Assembly (NCBI GenBank): GCA_028291945.1
Contig: JAQGNH010000389.1
Coordinates: 1 to 64,000 of the forward strand
Source: Betaproteobacteria bacterium
Lineage (GTDB): Bacteria > Pseudomonadota > Gammaproteobacteria > Burkholderiales > SG8-41
Direction of reading: 5' to 3'
Length of the DNA stretch: 64,000 nucleotides
The first letter of the stretch is position 1; each line of letters starts with the position of its first letter. Positions 24,848 through 59,830 of the stretch are shown here, piece after piece. The translations under genes and the position numbers were made by a program. Below the pieces are notes generated by a model that saw only the letters and a list, made by a program, of their open reading frames with translations, had not been told where the DNA came from and ran no database searches.

Positions 24848-25102
24848 CTCTGCTCCCGTACAAGACATGGAATGATTGCGCGTCTGCATGGCCACATGCA
24901 GAAGGAAGCTTGTCGATTCCAGAAATGGGGGCGATTGTACCCCGCCGGTGATTCCAACTCGTCCGAACAATCTTCCAGCTCTGCGCGAAGCCCAAGCACG
25001 CTGCAGCGGCTGGACACTTGCAAACGAGAGCGGCAGCAAGAACGCGATAACGCGGCGCGCGATTCCGGAAGAAGCCCGCCGCCGCACGCGTCAAAATCGC
25101 CT

Positions 25103-25585
25103 CATGACGCTGCAGGCAATCAATCCCGCCACCGGTCAGGTGGTCGGGGCTTACGACGACACTTCGATCGAGCGCGTCACGGTATTGTCGAGCACGCTCA
25201 CGACGCGTTCCTCGACTGGCGCCGCACGAAATCGCCGACCGCTCGGCGCCCATTCGCAGGGGCGGCGGAGAACCTCCGTGCGCGCGAGCGCGAGACGCGA
25301 CCCTGATGCAAGATCGTCCCGGTCGCCAACGAGGACGAAGCGATCGAGATGGCCAACAACTCGATCTACGGCCTGGGCAGTTGCGTGGTCACGCGGGACA
25401 GGCCGAAGGGCGAGCGCATCGCAGCGGAGCTCATGGAAAGCGGCCTCGCCTACGTGAACAGCGACATCGAAGAAGACCCCGCGCTTGCCCTTCGGTGGAA
25501 TCAAGGCGTCCCGTTACGGCCGCGAGATGTCGTCGTACGGCGTCAGGGAGTTCGTCAATATCAAAACGGTGTACGTCGCTTGAGC
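25103..25585 (+). pseudogene. Aldehyde dehydrogenase pseudogene with internal deletion
   Basis: The start reads MTLQAINPATGQVVGAYDD, the usual N-terminus of succinate-semialdehyde-type dehydrogenases. It continues in other frames with VEHAHDAFLDWRRTK and AAENLRARERE. It then jumps to the C-terminal region PVANEDEAIEMANNSIYGLG and, in another frame, [20 protein letters not shown]. The NAD-binding and catalytic Cys regions, over 300 residues, are missing, and there are at least three frameshifts. No functional product is expected. Confidence 0.8.
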
Positions 25586-25706
25586 CTTGAACGGCGGTCA
25601 GATCAACGCTTCAGCAGCTACCCACAACTCTTCAGCAAGATCAGGAAAGAGCGCGCGCGGCGCCAAGATTAAGCTAAGAGAGTCCACTCTCGATGGAGAA
25701 CCTGAC

Positions 25707-26627
25707 ATGACGCTTACTCATATCATCGCGAGCAGCGCGTCGGCGCTGTGCATCGCACTTGCAGGGTGCGCGAACTACTCCGGACAGCAGAGCCCGGGAC
25801 CGTCCGCGAGCGCGGGACCGCCCGCGGACTCGGGACCGCGCATCGACCCCAGAGCGGGCCTGCGGGCCCAGAGCGGCCAGACACGGAAACAGGTATTCGA
25901 CCAGCTCGACGCGAACCGCGACGGCAACATCTCTCGCGCGGAAGCCGATGCAAGCCCCGAGCTTGTCGCTATTTTCGTGACGACGGACGCAAATAGTGAC
26001 GACATGTTGAGCCTGGTCGAGTTCGCGGCGGTTCCGATCAGCTTCGGGGACGCTGCAGCGCAAACCGGCAGCCTTCAGGTGCAGGGCGGCACGACCCGGC
26101 AACAGGTATTCGACGCGCTTGACGCGAATCACGACGGCATGATCTCTCGCGCGGAAGCCGATGCCAGCCCGGATCTGGTTGCGGTTTTCGTCTCGACGGA
26201 CGCGAACAGCGACAGCATGCTCAGCCCGGCCGAGTTCGCGCTGGTTCCAATCAGCTTCGGAGGCGCGGCTCCGCAAACGGGCGCGGTGCACGCAATGCGC
26301 GGCATGACACGGCAGCAGGCGTTCAATTGGCTCGATACGAACCACGACGGCACGATCTCTCGTGCTGAGGCGCAGGCCAGTCCCCAGCTCGCTGCGATCT
26401 TCGTGGCGACGGACGCAAACAGTGACGGCATGTTGACCGCAGTGGAGTTCGCGGCGGTACCCATCACGTTCGATGGCGGCACGGCCGTGGGGGGCACCGG
26501 CAGCATGGGAAGCGGAACGGGCAGCGGAATGGGCGGCGGCTCGGCTGGATGGTGGCCGGTGCAGACGCCGTCCCAACCGAACGAAACACAGCCCGGTATG
26601 CTGAACGCCATCTCGGGTAGCAGTTGA
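25707..26627 (+). CDS. Outer-membrane-type lipoprotein with six EF-hand loops in three tandem repeats
   Basis: The start at 25707 follows GGAGAACCTGAC and gives a lipoprotein signal peptide (IASSASALCIALAGC, lipobox LAGC). The 306-residue protein then has three repeats of 71 residues. Each has two calcium-binding EF-hand loops: DANRDGNISRAE/DANSDDMLSLVE, DANHDGMISRAE/DANSDSMLSPAE and DTNHDGTISRAE/DANSDGMLTAVE. Each repeat ends AVPISFG or similar. A Gly-rich low-complexity region and a short tail follow. It should bind several Ca2+ ions on the periplasmic or cell surface. Its partner and role are unknown. Confidence 0.82.
   Translation: MTLTHIIASSASALCIALAGCANYSGQQSPGPSASAGPPADSGPRIDPRAGLRAQSGQTRKQVFDQLDANRDGNISRAEADASPELVAIFVTTDANSDDMLSLVEFAAVPISFGDAAAQTGSLQVQGGTTRQQVFDALDANHDGMISRAEADASPDLVAVFVSTDANSDSMLSPAEFALVPISFGGAAPQTGAVHAMRGMTRQQAFNWLDTNHDGTISRAEAQASPQLAAIFVATDANSDGMLTAVEFAAVPITFDGGTAVGGTGSMGSGTGSGMGGGSAGWWPVQTPSQPNETQPGMLNAISGSS
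25884..26505 (+). repeat. Three 213-bp tandem coding repeats
   Basis: The starts CGGAAACAGGTATTCGAC (25884), CGGCAACAGGTATTCGAC (26097) and CGGCAGCAGGCGTTCAAT (26310) are exactly 213 bases apart, so the unit is 71 codons. The repeats are similar but not identical, which implies an old duplication rather than a recent one. Confidence 0.8.
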
Positions 26628-26762: not shown

Positions 26763-27143
26763 TCAGCGCACCGAATCGATCTCTACCGTTTCGAATTCCG
26801 AGGGCAGGGTGATCTCGATGAGCTCAAGGTCCTCCGAGTGCGCGATTTCGTCGTGTTTGATTCCGGGAGGCTGATGGACGCAGCTTCCAGCCTCGGCGCG
26901 CACGCGCCCGACGCCTTCGTAGTCGAATTCGATCCAGCCGCGGATCACGTAGAACATCTGAAAATCGAGTCGATGGAAGTGAGCGCCCGTCACCCCTGCC
27001 GCACCGGGTTTCGCACGGATCACATGGGCAAGCACTTTACCGCCTGTCGCCTCCTTGATCCCGAGATCGCGGTACTCGAAAAACGACCGCAATCCGCGCG
27101 GAGCAAAGCACGCGTCGCGCAAGTGGCTGACCGAAAACTTCAT
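26763..27143 (-). CDS. Small cupin protein
   Basis: The start at 27143 (MKFSVSHLRDACF) has AAGGGGGCAGC upstream. The 126-residue single-domain cupin has AHFHRLDFQMFYVIRGW, with two His ligands (motif 1), and CVHQPPGIKHDEI, with His in motif 2. Such proteins bind a divalent metal and act as isomerases, dioxygenases or small-ligand sensors. It is the last gene of a minus-strand run (monooxygenase, aldolase, hydroxyacid dehydrogenase, binding protein). A 43-bp tandem repeat separates it from the preceding gene. Confidence 0.75.
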   Translation of the reverse strand: MKFSVSHLRDACFAPRGLRSFFEYRDLGIKEATGGKVLAHVIRAKPGAAGVTGAHFHRLDFQMFYVIRGWIEFDYEGVGRVRAEAGSCVHQPPGIKHDEIAHSEDLELIEITLPSEFETVEIDSVR

Positions 27144-27193
27144 GCTGCCCCCTTCCCAACCCTCCCCCACGCACTGCGTGCGCAAGGGAGGGA

Positions 27194-27292
27194 GTGCTTT
27201 ACTGTTCCCCCGCCGCCTTGCGTGCGCGAGCAAGGGGGTGCTTTACTGTTCCCCGCCGCCTTGCGTGCGCGAGCACGCGAGTGCTTTACTTT
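27194..27292. repeat. Tandem repeat of 43-44 bp at the end of the binding-protein gene
   Basis: GTGCTTTACTGTTCCCC begins units at 27194 and 27238, and a diverged third begins at 27281 (GTGCTTTACTTTTTCGC). The third overlaps the 3' end of the binding-protein gene at 27286, so its stop codon and last residues lie in the repeat. The intervening text is GCCGCCTTGCGTGCGCGAGC. Confidence 0.75.
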
Positions 27293-28041
27293 TTCGCGGG
27301 CGGCGCAACCGACAACCCTTTCACGCCGCTTTTCTCGATCCACTTCGCAACCAGTCCGGACGCCTTCACGTCTTCGACCAGATCGCACAGATAAGCGGCC
27401 GCCGCATCACGGCCTCTGGGCATGCCTACGGTATGGCGAACGACGGTGAAATTGCCATCGAGGATGCGTGAGCCTGGTAGCGCGGGCGCAGCTTCCAGCA
27501 AACCCGGCTTCAGCCCTGCGAGCGCGTCGAGCTTTTCTTTGACGAAGTGTTCCTGAGCCGCCTTCGTGCCGGCGATCTGCACCAGCTGCGCGTTCTTGAT
27601 CGTCCGGCTGAGATACAAATCGAACGCGCTTTTCGCGGGCGAGACAATGCGTATGCCGGCGCGATCGACTTCACTGATGCTGCGGATCGGGGAGCCGGCC
27701 GGCACGAGGTAGGTCGCTTCGATCTCGGTCAACGGTGCTGCAAACGCGATCACCTTCGCGCGCTCCGGCTCGTCACCCAGTACAGAAATGTCCCACACCC
27801 CGGTGCTCACCGAATCTGCCAGTGCGCCAGCCGATTTGAACGGGATGATGTCCAGCGGCACCGCCAGCCTGCGCGCGAGCTCGCGCGCAAACTCGACAGC
27901 CACACCGCCCTGCTCGCCGTTCGGGCCGAGGGTCGTGAGCAATACATTCTGAAAATTGATTCCTGCGCGCAGCTTGCCGGTGGACGTGAGCTCCGCTTTC
28001 GCAGCAGGAGGAATCTGTGGTGTCGCTGTGGAGGCAGTCAT
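27286..28041 (-). CDS. SBP_bac_3-type solute-binding protein without a signal peptide
   Basis: The ATG at 28041 overlaps the stop of the preceding dehydrogenase gene (ATGA), so translation is coupled; the track's longer N-terminus lies inside that gene. The 251-residue protein resembles amino-acid-type ABC binding proteins: GKLRAGINFQNVLLTT, GVAVEFARELARRL, WDISVLGDEPERAKVIAFAA, EIEATYLVPAGS. The first 30 residues (MTASTATPQIPPAAKAEL) have no hydrophobic segment, so export is not evident. It may be a cytoplasmic ligand-binding protein. The C-terminal SVAPPAKK comes from a repeat region. Confidence 0.78.
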   Translation of the reverse strand: MTASTATPQIPPAAKAELTSTGKLRAGINFQNVLLTTLGPNGEQGGVAVEFARELARRLAVPLDIIPFKSAGALADSVSTGVWDISVLGDEPERAKVIAFAAPLTEIEATYLVPAGSPIRSISEVDRAGIRIVSPAKSAFDLYLSRTIKNAQLVQIAGTKAAQEHFVKEKLDALAGLKPGLLEAAPALPGSRILDGNFTVVRHTVGMPRGRDAAAAYLCDLVEDVKASGLVAKWIEKSGVKGLSVAPPAKK

Positions 28042-29300
28042 CGCGCGTCGTCCTGGATAGCGACTGTTGTTAGCAGGTTGCGTGAGCCGCGCGCGGGCGA
28101 TGTCGGCTGTGCCACTTGTTGTTTCATGAGCCATTCAGGTGGAAAGGCGACATGCTGCGGTCCGATGTCGGACACCCTGTTGCAGGAAATCTGAGCCATG
28201 GCGCGGCTGATCTCGCCGCGATAGATATCCAGAGCCCGGGTCGCACCCGCCTCGCCCCCGGCGGCAGTGCCATACAGCGTGCTGCGTCCGATCAGCACCA
28301 TCTTCGCTCCGAGTGCCAGCGCCTTCACCACGTCGCTGCCGCGGCGCACGCCGCTATCGAAGAGCACGGTGGTGCGATCGCCCACCGCTTTGACGATCTC
28401 CGGCAGCACTTCGATCGGCGCGGGTGCAGCGTCGCAGTTGCGCCCGCCATGGTTGGACACGATGATGCCGTCGGCGCCGTACTCAAGGGACTTCGACGCA
28501 TCATCGGGATGCAGCAGCCCCTTCACCAGCAGCTTGCCGGGCCAGATGTCGCGCAGTGCCTTGAGGTCGTCCCAGTTGAGCGAATCGCTGCGGGTCTCCT
28601 TGTTGCCCCCGTAGGCCGTGGTGATCTTGCCCTTCAACTCGTCGGGAAAATTCGCACGCGTCGGCATACCGCCGTTGGCGATATAACGCCCCAGCACACC
28701 CAACATCCAGCGCGGATGCATGAGCACATCGGTCGTGTTCCTGCTGTTGTACTTGAAAGGCACGGAGAAGCCGTTGCGCTTGTTGTACTCGCGGTTTCCG
28801 GCGACCACGCCGTCCACGGTCACCAGCAGCGCTTCGAAACCCGCGGCCGAAGCGCGGCGCACCACTTGATGCGAAAGTTTGCGGTCGGCCCACATGTAGA
28901 GCTGCATCCAGAGCGTGCCGCCGACTTCGCCGGCGACTTGCTCCATGCTCGTGATGGAGCCGGTGGCAAGCGAGAACGGAATGCCGGCGGCCTTGGCGGC
29001 GCGCGCGAGCTCCAGCTCGCCCTGATACCACATCATGCCGGCTGAGCCGGTGGGCGCGATGCCGATCGGCATCTTGTGTTCCTTGCCGTAAACAGTCGTG
29101 TCGAGCTTGCGGCCGGAGACGTCCACCAGCATGCGCGGCCGCAGCTTGATGCGTTCAAACGCCTCGCGGTTGTTGCGCAGCGCCACTTCTTCTTCGGTGC
29201 CGCGGTCGACAAACTCGAACAGCCACTTCGGCAGGCGTCGCTTGGCCATCTCGCGCAAATCAAAAATGTTATGCGCGTCCTCTAATTTTGGAAAAATCAT
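28038..29300 (-). CDS. FMN-dependent alpha-hydroxyacid dehydrogenase (LldD/glycolate oxidase family)
   Basis: A 420-residue protein. Features in order: FDLREMAKRRLPKWLFEFVD, the FMN-binding PIGIAPTGSAGM, TLWMQLYMWADR, LLVTVDGVVAGNREYNKRNG, the catalytic Lys of KLLVKGLL, the active-site His in VSNHGGRNCDAAPAPIEVLP, and the phosphate-binding GVRRGSDVVKALALGA. It oxidises a 2-hydroxyacid to the 2-oxoacid. The last 30 residues (after FPPEWLMKQQ) have no counterpart in the paralogue at 58640. A dispersed repeat lies upstream and the aldolase gene precedes it. Confidence 0.9.
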   Translation of the reverse strand: MIFPKLEDAHNIFDLREMAKRRLPKWLFEFVDRGTEEEVALRNNREAFERIKLRPRMLVDVSGRKLDTTVYGKEHKMPIGIAPTGSAGMMWYQGELELARAAKAAGIPFSLATGSITSMEQVAGEVGGTLWMQLYMWADRKLSHQVVRRASAAGFEALLVTVDGVVAGNREYNKRNGFSVPFKYNSRNTTDVLMHPRWMLGVLGRYIANGGMPTRANFPDELKGKITTAYGGNKETRSDSLNWDDLKALRDIWPGKLLVKGLLHPDDASKSLEYGADGIIVSNHGGRNCDAAPAPIEVLPEIVKAVGDRTTVLFDSGVRRGSDVVKALALGAKMVLIGRSTLYGTAAGGEAGATRALDIYRGEISRAMAQISCNRVSDIGPQHVAFPPEWLMKQQVAQPTSPARGSRNLLTTVAIQDDAR

Positions 29301-29322
29301 GATGTCACCCTCCTTGCATTTA

Positions 29323-29421
29323 TGCGTCGTCAGTCCGGACCCGCGGCAGCGGAAGTGATGCGGAATCCATTTTCAAAGCTTCAGCGTCAACATGGATCCT
29401 GGCGTGCGCCAGGAGGACGAC
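29323..29421. repeat. GTCCGGACCC...GGAATCCA dispersed repeat, copy 1
   Basis: The text has AGTCCGGACCCGCGGCAGCG, then GCGGAATCCA, a variable middle, and ATGGATCCTGGC...GCCAGGAGGACGA. Related copies lie near 49440-49607 and 53810-53909. The layout (about 100 bp, outer CGTC.../...GACG ends, two internal hairpins) is a non-coding palindromic element type found across proteobacterial genomes. Confidence 0.65.
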
Positions 29422-29500
29422 CGAAGCTGAGCCTATCACCTCGTCAATCGCAATAGTGGTCTGTCGCGGTCTGTTCCCGGTTTTCTGGAAGCTCGTTAAT

Positions 29501-30310
29501 TCAGCGCGTCGGAACGCCAATCGATTTAAGTCGCGCGTGCGCGCGATCGGCACGAGCCTTGAGTCCGTCGCGGTAGGTGCTGGTATCGGTGCCGGGCAGA
29601 TTCAATACCTTGCAACCGAGTTTCCAATATTCCTCGATTTGCGCTTCCGTCTCGGCGGAACCTCTCGCGAGTTTGCCATGCTTCTTGCAGGTATCCGCTA
29701 TGGTGCGCACGACTTTCTTGAACTTCGGGTGATCGAGCTGCAAATGGATGCCGAGCTGCGCGCTCAGATCGGAGTGACCGTACGCAATCATGTCGATGCC
29801 CTCGACTGCAGCGATCGCGTCGACGTTCTCCAATCCTTGGAGGGATTCGATCGATGGGCAAATGATGATGTTGTCGTTTGCCCATGGACTGTATTCGGTG
29901 TGGAAGCGGTCTCCATAACCCTTGTAATCCGTGTGGGGGCCCATCTGAGATATTCCGCGATTTCCGATCGGCGGATACTTGGCTTCGTGCACGATAGCGC
30001 GCGCTTCTTCCGCATTGTCCACGCCTGAGATCTGTATTCCCATGATGCCTTGATCGAGTATGCCCGGAATCAGATGTCTGAACGCTTTATGGATGCGCAC
30101 GATCGGCGACACTTCCGTGGCCGCGAACCACGCGGCGAGATCGGCTATCGTTTCCAGATCGAACGCACCGTGCTCCATGTCGATCATGCAGTAATCGAAA
30201 CCGGAGGATTCGATGATCCGCGGAACGCCGCGCGTTGCGAACTCCTTGAGCCCGGTTCCGAGCGCGGCCCGTCCCTCGCGCACGGCTCTGCGGATGCTGT
30301 TCTCTTTCAC
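29501..30310 (-). CDS. HpcH/HpaI-family class II aldolase
   Basis: A 269-residue TIM-barrel protein. Family features are GTGLKEFATRGVPRIIESSG, MIDMEHGAFDLETIADL with the conserved Glu-His, PIVRIHKAFRHLI, IMGIQISGVDNAEEA and the metal-ligand region ICPSIESLQGLENVDAI. Members cleave or condense 2-keto-3-deoxy acids or 4-hydroxy-2-oxoacids with Mg2+/Mn2+. The gene follows the monooxygenase gene by 45 bases and precedes the hydroxyacid dehydrogenase, so a short catabolic operon is likely. The substrate is not predictable. Confidence 0.88.
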   Translation of the reverse strand: MKENSIRRAVREGRAALGTGLKEFATRGVPRIIESSGFDYCMIDMEHGAFDLETIADLAAWFAATEVSPIVRIHKAFRHLIPGILDQGIMGIQISGVDNAEEARAIVHEAKYPPIGNRGISQMGPHTDYKGYGDRFHTEYSPWANDNIIICPSIESLQGLENVDAIAAVEGIDMIAYGHSDLSAQLGIHLQLDHPKFKKVVRTIADTCKKHGKLARGSAETEAQIEEYWKLGCKVLNLPGTDTSTYRDGLKARADRAHARLKSIGVPTR

Positions 30311-30355: not shown

Positions 30356-32134
30356 CTAGTGCTTCGACAAAATCCCTTCCTCGATCGCCTTGATCTGCAC
30401 GGCCACATAACGCGAGTAGGTCCGGCAGTTCGCGAAGCTCCCTCCCACGAACCAGAGGCCTTCCTGCGCAGTACGCTTCCACATGTTGTTCATCTCGCCG
30501 TCCGGACCGAAGCCCCAGACGGGCCCCACCTTCTTCGCGACTTCATTGCCCAAGAGCTTTGCGACCACCACTTCCTGCGAGACGAAGCCCGTCGCGAGGA
30601 CGATGAGGTCAGCCGGCATGACCGATCCGTCTTTGAGCAACGCGCCACCTTCGACGAACCGCTCGATCTCGTCGTATTGCAGCAGGCCGACCTCGCCGTC
30701 GATGATCAGCTGGGAGCAACCGGCATCGAGGTAATAGCCGCCATAGCGCGTGCGAACCTTCCACTGGTGGCCGGCGCCGTCCTCACCGGCGTCGAACTTG
30801 AATCCGCGGGCGATCAGGCCGTCGATCGTCTTCCTGTCGAACTCCAACATGCGCGCGGTAAGCGCCTGCAGATTCTTTTTCACTATCGGCTTGGTGTTCG
30901 TGCTCGCCAGCAGATCGCCATCCTGGAGCGCGATGCCGTTGTAGATGCCATAGACGAGCTTCGCCGAGGGATCGATGCTTATCACCATCGTCGACCCGCG
31001 CTGGACGATGGTGGTCTCGCACCCGTTCGCGTGCAAGTCCTGCGCGACGTCGTGGCCGCTCGTTCCGGTGCCTATGACCAGGGCCTTCTTGCCCCGCCAG
31101 TTGGCGCCGTCGGTGAACTCGGTGGTGTGCAGCACGTCGCCCTTGAAATCCTTCAGCCCGGGCAACTCCGGAACATGCGGGGAACCCACCAGCCCGTTGG
31201 CGAAGACGAGATGCCGGGGATGCAGCGTGCGCTCGGTGCCATCGCCGTGGCGGACCACGGCGTTCCACCTGCCGGCAGATTCATCGTAATTTCCGCTCAC
31301 GAGCTCCATGCTGGTCCAGAAATTGATCTCCATCGCCCACGCGTAGGCCTCGAACCAGTCGGCCACCATGTCCTTGGGCAGGTAGGTCGGCCACGAGACC
31401 GGAAAGGGCATGTAAGGCAGGTGGTTGTAGCTGGTGTCGTTGTGCAGCGCGAGCGAGTGGTAGCGCTTGCGCCAGCAGTCGCCGACGCGCTCGAACCGGT
31501 CGACGACGAGCGTGTCCACGCCGAGCCGGCCGAGTGTGGCCGCGAGAGACAGTCCGGCCTGGCCGCCGCCGGCGATCAGCACCACGGGTTCGCGGTCGGC
31601 GTACGCCTGGCTGGCGATGCGCTGTTCCTTCCAGTTGGTTCCGCCGAAGTTGCGCGAGAAGGCTTCTCCGGTCGGCCGGCGCTTGCCGATCTTTTCCTCG
31701 AAGCCTTTCAGCTCGTGCAGGCCGGTCATGAGCTGATAGGCCCTGGAGGGATCCGCGGCCAACAGCCTCACCACACCGAAGCCGCGTCCGACCTCGGTCT
31801 CGAACTGGATAATGCCCTCGATGACATCGATGCCGGCTCTCTGAATGCGACGGGGCGGCGTGCGTCCTTCTGCGACGGCAAACGCGCGCACCCTGGCAGT
31901 TCCCTGCTTCGAAACCATCAACGCTGCAATGTCTTCGGCACCCTGCTTCGGTGTGATCGACCAGGTAAAGGCGAGCAGGTCGCGCCAGTGGCCGTCGTGC
32001 GCAAACAGAGACGCGAGAGACGCCCGGCTTTGGCTCTGAAGCGCTACATCGAGCCGCCCGAGCCATCGTTCGACAAGCTCCTTCTCGGAATGAACGATAC
32101 TTTTCTCAGACACCAGGTGGTTTGCGATGTCCAT
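30356..32134 (-). CDS. Flavin-containing monooxygenase with N-terminal SnoaL/NTF2-like domain
   Basis: The ATG at 32134 has GAGGACC 7 bases upstream and is preferred over the GTG at 32179. The 592-residue protein has an N-terminal region (about 15-150) resembling an NTF2/SnoaL-like domain (ASLFAHDGHWRDLLAFTWSI). An FAD site follows (VVLIAGGGQAGLSL, residues 185-197), then VGDCWRKRYHSLALHNDTSY, the FMO-type FKGDVLHTTEF, and a second nucleotide motif (ALVIGTGTSGHDVAQDL). It presumably inserts oxygen into a small organic compound with NAD(P)H. It is first in a five-gene minus-strand run. Confidence 0.85.
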   Translation of the reverse strand: MDIANHLVSEKSIVHSEKELVERWLGRLDVALQSQSRASLASLFAHDGHWRDLLAFTWSITPKQGAEDIAALMVSKQGTARVRAFAVAEGRTPPRRIQRAGIDVIEGIIQFETEVGRGFGVVRLLAADPSRAYQLMTGLHELKGFEEKIGKRRPTGEAFSRNFGGTNWKEQRIASQAYADREPVVLIAGGGQAGLSLAATLGRLGVDTLVVDRFERVGDCWRKRYHSLALHNDTSYNHLPYMPFPVSWPTYLPKDMVADWFEAYAWAMEINFWTSMELVSGNYDESAGRWNAVVRHGDGTERTLHPRHLVFANGLVGSPHVPELPGLKDFKGDVLHTTEFTDGANWRGKKALVIGTGTSGHDVAQDLHANGCETTIVQRGSTMVISIDPSAKLVYGIYNGIALQDGDLLASTNTKPIVKKNLQALTARMLEFDRKTIDGLIARGFKFDAGEDGAGHQWKVRTRYGGYYLDAGCSQLIIDGEVGLLQYDEIERFVEGGALLKDGSVMPADLIVLATGFVSQEVVVAKLLGNEVAKKVGPVWGFGPDGEMNNMWKRTAQEGLWFVGGSFANCRTYSRYVAVQIKAIEEGILSKH

Positions 32135-32309
32135 CAGTTGGTCCTCATCGATTGATAGCTCGAGAGCACAGTGTGCCACGTCGGCGTGGAGAGTGACGAC
32201 GCGCTGGAAATTGCCGAGCAGACCGAACTGTGGACGAAGATGGGCTCGGTTCGCGACCGTTGCTGGGGTCGCTTACCGGCCCGAGGCGGAAGTCAACTCT
32301 AGTCGCGGG

Positions 32310-58639: not shown

Positions 58640-59830
58640 ATGTCCAATAGCTCCGTGGAGGAAGCACTCAACGTATTCGATCTGCGTCAAATGGCGAAAG
58701 CGCGATTGCCCAAGTGGCTGTTCGAGTTTGTCGATCGAGGCACGGAGGACGAGGTTGCTTTGCGCAACAATCGCGCCGCCTTCGAACGCATCAAGTTGAA
58801 GACTCAGGTTCTGGTGGATGTGTCGACGCGCAATCAGGACACCACGCTCTTTGGCAAACAGCACAAGATGCCCATCGGGATCGCACCGACCGGCCCTGCG
58901 GGAATGCTGTGGTACAAGGGCGAGCTCGAACTGGCGCGTGCGGCCAAGGCAGCCGGGATTCCCTTTACGCTCGCCACGGGATCCCAGACGAGCATGGAAG
59001 AAGTTGCCAAGGTCGTCGGCGGCACGCTCTGGTTTCAGCTCTACATGTGGTCGGATGTGCGCATGTCCCACATGCTCGTCGAACGCGCAAAGAATGCCGG
59101 CTTCGAAGCGCTGGTTGTGACAGTCGACGGACCTGTCGGTACCAATCGCGAATACAACATCCGCAACGGCTACACCGTTCCATTTTCCTACAACCGCAAG
59201 AACACCACCGCGGTGATGGTCAAGCCGGGCTGGTTCTTCAGCGTGCTCATGCGCTACTGGCTGACCACCGGCATGCCGCGCCGCGAAAATTATCCTACCG
59301 AGATGAAGGAAAGATTCACCCATGTCTCGTCGGCGGAGCGCAAGACGAAAAACGATTCCCTTGGCTGGACTGATCTGAAAGTGCTGCGCGACATGTGGCC
59401 GGGAAAGCTTCTTGTGAAAGGCATTTTGACGCCGAAGGACGCCGCGCTCGCGATCGCGCATGGCGCGGACGGCATCATCGTATCCAATCATGGCGGCCGG
59501 AACTTCGACAGTTCGATGGCGCCCATCGAAGCCCTCGCGCCCATCGTGGATGCGGTCGGCGATCGCACCACGGTCATCATCGACAGTGGTTTCCGCCGCG
59601 GCAGCGATGTCGTGAAGGCGCTCGCGATTGGCGCGAAGCTGGTGATGGTCGGCCGCGCGACGCTTTGGGGCACGACTGTCGGGGGAGAAGCAGGCGCGGC
59701 GCGGGCGCTCGATTTTTACCGGCAGGAAATCAGTCGGACACTGGCTTATCTGGGTTGCCGCAGCGTGGCGGAGCTCAATCGGGATTGTCTCGAATTCGTC
59801 GGCACGCCGCACGTCGCAGCAGCGATGTAA
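58640..59830 (+). CDS. FMN-dependent alpha-hydroxyacid dehydrogenase (LldD/glycolate oxidase family)
   Basis: The start at 58640 has TGAGGGGGAAAGC upstream. The 396-residue protein is a paralogue of the one at 28038, and alike throughout: FDLRQMAKARLPKWLFEFVD, PIGIAPTGPAGMLWYKGELE, KLLVKGILTPKDA, VSNHGGRNFDSSMAPIEALA and the active-site His. It oxidises a 2-hydroxyacid to the 2-oxoacid. It ends cleanly without the extra tail of the other copy. The MmgE/PrpD gene follows on the same strand 76 bases later, and the two are probably in one operon. Confidence 0.9.
   Translation: MSNSSVEEALNVFDLRQMAKARLPKWLFEFVDRGTEDEVALRNNRAAFERIKLKTQVLVDVSTRNQDTTLFGKQHKMPIGIAPTGPAGMLWYKGELELARAAKAAGIPFTLATGSQTSMEEVAKVVGGTLWFQLYMWSDVRMSHMLVERAKNAGFEALVVTVDGPVGTNREYNIRNGYTVPFSYNRKNTTAVMVKPGWFFSVLMRYWLTTGMPRRENYPTEMKERFTHVSSAERKTKNDSLGWTDLKVLRDMWPGKLLVKGILTPKDAALAIAHGADGIIVSNHGGRNFDSSMAPIEALAPIVDAVGDRTTVIIDSGFRRGSDVVKALAIGAKLVMVGRATLWGTTVGGEAGAARALDFYRQEISRTLAYLGCRSVAELNRDCLEFVGTPHVAAAM

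Follow-up and report, generated by a model that had tools for sequence, protein, structure and literature searches.

A large, unnamed SBP_bac_3 family that may have left ABC transport, seen from a leaderless member whose start overlaps the stop of an FMN-dependent dehydrogenase gene

Why would a protein with the fold of a transporter's substrate-binding protein (SBP) be made without an export leader, with its start codon overlapping the stop codon of a dehydrogenase gene? The question is raised by a 64,000-nucleotide stretch of DNA from a Betaproteobacteria bacterium (contig JAQGNH010000389.1), here called the window. An earlier note, made from the sequence alone, had described such an SBP_bac_3-type protein starting inside the dehydrogenase stop (ATGA), with an aldolase and a monooxygenase preceding on the same strand. 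The overlap can be read directly in the window sequence, and Pfam recovered both upstream genes (HpcH_HpaI and FMO-type, 30356–32179). The span under which the observation had been filed, 28038–30310, covers the dehydrogenase and the aldolase; the SBP itself lies where the note's text had put it, at 27286–28041. The genes of the locus are as follows.

26763–27233, minus strand: small cupin encoded downstream of the SBP (Pfam PF07883, E=1.4e-08 to 8.9e-09)
27286–28041, minus strand: leaderless SBP_bac_3-fold protein, 251 aa, N-terminus MTASTATPQIPPAAKAELTSTGKLR... (Pfam PF00497, AlphaFold2, Foldseek)
28038–28041, minus strand: ATGA overlap of dehydrogenase stop and SBP start, a putative translational coupling junction (sequence; same in L033 and L034)
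28051–28054, minus strand: possible Shine-Dalgarno AGGA, nine bases 5′ of the SBP ATG and within the dehydrogenase gene (read from sequence)
28038–29300, minus strand: FMN-dependent 2-hydroxyacid dehydrogenase/oxidase, 420 aa (Pfam PF01070, E=5.4e-133)
29501–30310, minus strand: HpcH/HpaI-type aldolase (HpcH_HpaI), 269 aa (Pfam PF03328, E=7.4e-27)
30356–32179, minus strand: flavin-dependent monooxygenase (FMO-like), 607 aa, upstream on the same strand (Pfam PF00743, E=2e-17)

At the junction, the SBP ATG occupies 28041–28039 and the dehydrogenase TGA 28040–28038. The dehydrogenase matches the FMN_dh profile PF01070 over its full length (positions 1–348 of 350), and its top NCBIfam matches are L-lactate dehydrogenase models, with scores under their cut-offs. 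When the loci were compared by tblastn, the aldolase was found upstream of the dehydrogenase in one of the two same-genus loci (L034, 83%) with no match in the other (L033), while neither the FMO-like monooxygenase nor the cupin, which is not conserved, had a match at the relatives' loci. The interval between cupin and SBP carries three 53-base direct repeats in register (27163–27302, spacing 44 and 43 bases), the last of which overlaps the SBP stop codon. Two plus-strand frames lie further downstream of the SBP: one (24876–25457) has an apparent aldehyde dehydrogenase N-terminus (MTLQAINPATGQVVGAYDD) with no matching long frame and is possibly a broken gene, and the other (25587–26627) contains three repeated EF-hand-like stretches (DANRDGNISRAEAD, DANHDGMISRAEAD, DTNHDGTISRAEAQ).

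The first matter to settle is whether the leader is truly missing. The sole in-frame upstream start (28134) adds 31 polar residues, MAHETTSGTADIARARLTQPANNSRYPGRRA, which have no hydrophobic core, and from no upstream start does the frame contain a hydrophobic segment that could act as an export signal. A hidden cleavable signal from an alternative upstream start, which the earlier note had named as the finding that would overturn it, was thus sought without success, and the claim that the N-terminus is not a signal peptide holds. Two same-genus genomes, whose SBPs are 87% and 80% identical to that of the window, show this ATGA overlap between dehydrogenase and SBP, again with no leader; the leaderless start is therefore not an assembly artefact, and the state is common to same-genus relatives. 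The N-terminal sequence of the window SBP, MTASTATPQIPPAAKAEL, is similar to the lipobox stretch MTSCASTPQIPPAARAEL in the lipoprotein L035, and this likeness suggests a trimmed leader.

A leader that looks cut off, along with internal stops in a few relatives, could also be expected of a degenerating gene, or of an error in the metagenome assembly (a wrong start or a frameshift). The window SBP is, however, under purifying selection (dN/dS ~0.14 against the two genus relatives, similar to the 0.17 of the dehydrogenase), which rules out a pseudogene, and the leaderless state is common not only to the genus relatives but also to a 44-row clade and to annotated isolate plasmids. Decay or misassembly is thereby largely refuted and now seems very improbable. 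Sequence, gene context and phylogeny support the window copy as a probable cytoplasmic form.

The wider family is mixed in this respect. Among 157 distinct relatives, a simple hydrophobicity rule (rather than SignalP) called 110 leaderless, 33 with a lipoprotein leader and 14 with a Sec-type leader; a related form of the rule recognises 133 of 151 Bug receptors and assigns leaders too often in enzymes, so that the rule is biased in favour of a leader. The distance from the start to the TGKLR motif is 8–22 residues in leaderless members, with few exceptions, and 30–41 in lipoproteins. To the question of whether homologues have leaders the answer is thus divided: 110 of the 157 are leaderless, and since about 30% do carry a leader, the family cannot be called strictly cytoplasmic throughout. 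Rokubacterial members have mostly kept a Sec-type leader. The leader-bearing members (for example L035, L037, L039, L122, Rokubacteria L188 and L200) have the same domain and a similar mature N-terminus, with L035 and L037 being 74% identical to the window SBP, and like it they have no consistently linked permease; unlike it, they bear a lipobox or Sec leader and presumably act outside the cytoplasm.

The genome of the window encodes four SBP_bac_3 proteins, of which three belong to the family and one is canonical, with leader and permease. The second family member (contig C84) is leaderless and 55% identical to the window copy, and the third (contig C364, 34%) has a Sec-type leader and lies beside a Bug/TctC receptor. 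Family members occur in 61 of 100 relatives' genomes and in 22 of 299 genomes from a spread sample of the phylum, own genome included, and 80 loci turned up in a scan of named genomes, under labels that include Beta-, Alpha- and Gammaproteobacteria and Rokubacteria. Leaderless members also appear in annotated plasmid records of Octadecabacter, Burkholderia, Variovorax and Paraburkholderia, where they are labelled substrate-binding proteins. Some members (L194/L057 and L265) contain internal stop codons and are possibly pseudogenes or assembly errors, and several metagenome bins have public names that look doubtful (L175, L177, L178, L180, L182, L231 and L238, titled 'Bordetella parapertussis', and L226, titled 'Asaia bogorensis'). 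No description of this SBP_bac_3 family was found in the open-access papers searched.

Export state appears to have changed repeatedly in the family, at least six times as judged from sequence trees. In a 105-row tree, for which some borderline leader assignments were settled by visual inspection, 8 changes of the leaderless label are required, and well-supported branches force at least 6; larger quick trees, with weaker support, give 17–18 changes between leaderless and exported. The window SBP falls in a mixed clade with lipoproteins 66–74% identical to it, and the separate 44-row clade is leaderless throughout. When the tree was rooted on a canonical GltI-like SBP (L163), the root fell on a long branch, and because such rooting is unreliable the direction of each leader switch can only be surmised. 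In four genomes, a leaderless copy is followed in tandem by a lipoprotein copy in one operon, with gaps of 14–45 bases and 57–73% identity between the two:

L037, 6641–8184: tandem leaderless and lipoprotein SBPs
L039, 4126–5682: tandem leaderless and lipoprotein SBPs
L041, 7031–8605: tandem leaderless and lipoprotein SBPs
L178, 5126–6691: tandem leaderless and lipoprotein SBPs

In L037, L039 and L041 the pair is followed at a short distance by a lactonase gene.

Another way to ask what these proteins do is to look for a transporter that they might serve. An ABC permease gene is present in only 28 of 152 stretches (up to ~8 kb either side), with no consistent pattern whether the family protein is exported or leaderless. 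BPD_transp_1 is not among the most frequent families of immediate neighbours, and no PF00528 is found among the matches listed for the window contig, so that the linked permease and ATPase expected beside an amino-acid ABC binding protein are lacking. As the earlier note had held, then, no transporter gene accompanies the window SBP nor, as a rule, its relatives. The protein could still be a transport component if it were exported by a non-classical route or served a transporter encoded elsewhere, and the Sec or lipoprotein leaders in ~30% of the family, the Bug-type receptors common in family neighbourhoods and the permease genes beside one relative (L242) would fit such a role. Yet the start of leaderless members roughly coincides with that of the exported mature forms and no hydrophobic segment is present, permease linkage is inconsistent, and the genome's own canonical SBP_bac_3 protein has both leader and permease, all of which makes continued service in transport quite improbable.

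The neighbours of family members are mostly metabolic enzymes. Immediately upstream on the same strand, the families beside 59 leaderless members include DUF1330 (11, the top family), MmgE/PrpD (6) and FMN_dh (5); downstream, beside 57, they include lactonase (5), glyoxalase (5) and MFS (4). In one genus a small protein of ~97 residues precedes leaderless SBPs (L037, L038, L039, L040, L041 and others), and the DUF1330 entries are probably these proteins. Beside one leaderless clade a gene of the DNA polymerase IV type is conserved in position on the opposite strand:

L072, L073, L075, L081, L083, L087, L090, opposite strand: impB/mucB/samB gene beside or near the SBP

Pairing with an FMN dehydrogenase is one of several arrangements, and it recurs. 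The dehydrogenase is ATGA-coupled upstream of the SBP in the window, L033 and L034, lies upstream on the same strand at a distance of ~50 bases in L080 and 8 bases in L062, and stands further off in the same orientation in L225 and L057; the order PrpD, FMN_dh, SBP is found in both L080 and L225. The linked dehydrogenases belong to three FMN_dh subfamilies, interleaved with unlinked paralogues, and strict co-inheritance, in which they would form one clade, was not found. The neighbour tallies likewise rule out the dehydrogenase as a universal partner. Given the variable contexts and the repeated upstream placement, the pairing recurs while most relatives have other partners. What had been asked of the neighbourhood, namely whether it is conserved, is therefore true of the dehydrogenase coupling in three genomes of the genus and untrue of most relatives, and of the suggestion that the SBP is an oxidase partner rather than a transporter part, the second half is supported; a dedicated allosteric partner of a single oxidase is too specific, because most relatives have other neighbours.

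Whether the link to the dehydrogenase arose by chance, in genomes rich in catabolic genes, is a side question compatible with any other reading. Most relatives do not adjoin an FMN dehydrogenase, and eight FMN dehydrogenase genes, apparently full-length, are present in the window's own genome; both points would fit a chance link. On our own rough estimate, however, with some eight such genes among several thousand, immediate pairing would be expected in ~0.1% of loci, and it is seen immediately upstream on the same strand in three lineages (the window genus, L080 and L062) and nearby in L225 and L057, with L096 the only locus of the FMN dehydrogenase set to break the upstream same-strand pattern. 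Coincidence is thus unlikely. The plus strand of the window encodes, at 58694–59791, another FMN-dependent dehydrogenase that shares 66% identity with the SBP-linked enzyme.

The fold and the cleft give some indication of the ligand. The window SBP matches PF00497 at 41.6 bits (cut-off 26.4, E=1.3e-10), and its AlphaFold2 model has a pLDDT of 94.6 and a pTM of 0.88. The protein shares with the polar amino-acid ABC SBPs (SBP_bac_3; LAO/ArgBP type) the type II SBP fold and R94, which we take to be their carboxylate-binding Arg; it differs from them in having no leader, no linked permease, Leu177 at what is presumably the position of their amine-binding Asp, a Ser-rich binding loop two residues shorter, and an N29/N32 pair in the first loop. 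By alignment, only the Arg of the Arg and Asp cleft pair of amino-acid SBPs is kept, as R94, and L177 replaces the Asp. Among leaderless members R94 is kept in 94%, and N29, N32 and Y111 in 97% each. The ligand is most likely a small carboxylate without an alpha-amino group, to judge from these residues.

The nearest solved structures found by Foldseek are ancestral and extant cyclohexadienyl dehydratases together with plain amino-acid-binding proteins, the latter with similar scores (TM 0.5–0.73 overall), and AncCDT-3 is among the nearest solved sequences by profile (E=2e-21). Cyclohexadienyl dehydratase (PheC) and its ancestors, nearest by profile and first by fold, represent an SBP turned enzyme; PheC is exported, whereas the window SBP has neither a leader nor the nine PheC active-site residues. 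These residues in PaCDT are Tyr22, Trp60, Lys100, Asn128, Thr132, Asn133, Asn152, Thr169 and Glu173 (PMC10520331). None of the nine is present in the window SBP, with positions assigned through the AncCDT-3 profile alignment, and the proton donor Glu173 is replaced by Gly180 and mostly by Arg in relatives. The protein is therefore not a cyclohexadienyl dehydratase.

The reading that we tentatively prefer is of a transporter-free cytosolic protein handling a non-amino carboxylate, an enzyme derived from an SBP, with both catalysis and ligand being predictions. Cyclohexadienyl dehydratases provide the precedent, as enzymes derived from SBPs (PMC7683729). An orphan SBP_bac_3-fold family would function without an ABC transporter and would have shifted repeatedly between the cell exterior and the cytoplasm. 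In the window SBP, the cleft would close on a small carboxylate that carries no alpha-amino group, for instance a 2-hydroxy or 2-keto acid from the pathway to which the putatively co-translated dehydrogenase and aldolase belong. The outcome would be chemistry, with the soluble enzyme acting on the carboxylate either before the dehydrogenase oxidises it or afterwards. Closely related copies could function with no transporter both inside and outside the membrane because, as proposed here, an enzyme needs only its substrate, and it is this occurrence on both sides that slightly favours catalysis over a role dependent on a partner. Three points tell against the enzyme: catalytic machinery could not be identified, since none of the nine dehydratase residues is kept, Glu173 included; the neighbourhood varies more than an enzyme of a single pathway would lead one to expect; and the nearest structures include amino-acid-binding proteins with similar scores.

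Almost as probable is a cytosolic accessory that does no catalysis but binds the substrate or product of its neighbours, whether to buffer it, to take part in channelling or to serve as an allosteric effector. It would account for the full hinge-type SBP fold, the conserved binding-site residues, the ATGA coupling kept in the genus and the repeated position behind FMN dehydrogenases from three subfamilies. The partners differ between lineages, however, and a specific protein-protein interface would for that reason have had to change often; moreover, most of the known cytosolic proteins that consist of a type II SBP fold by itself are enzymes. MqnA, MqnD and Thi5, of menaquinone and thiamine synthesis, are cytosolic enzymes of this kind that stand alone without a transporter; their Pfam families differ from that of the window SBP, and no sequence or structure match to them appears among the matches listed for it.

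SBPs are annotated as transporter parts, and in the plasmid records examined relatives of the window protein carry the label 'ABC transporter substrate-binding protein'. The rule that equates SBP with transporter is broken by a family most of whose members have no export signal, which has no transporter and which switches export state with little change in its domain. SBP-derived enzymes are already known (PMC7683729), and the family would be a new kind only if catalysis or a new regulatory role were shown. The pairing with FMN dehydrogenases and the carboxylate-type cleft do provide a concrete and testable class of ligand, and the exported and cytosolic copies, which are closely related and in some cases share an operon, form a natural series for asking how a binding protein turns into an enzyme or regulator. 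It is possible, on this evidence, that a large and unnamed SBP_bac_3 family, whose export state has changed six times or more and whose cytosolic and lipoprotein copies can stand in tandem within one operon, has left ABC transport to become compartment-switching soluble enzymes or effectors in carboxylic-acid catabolism.
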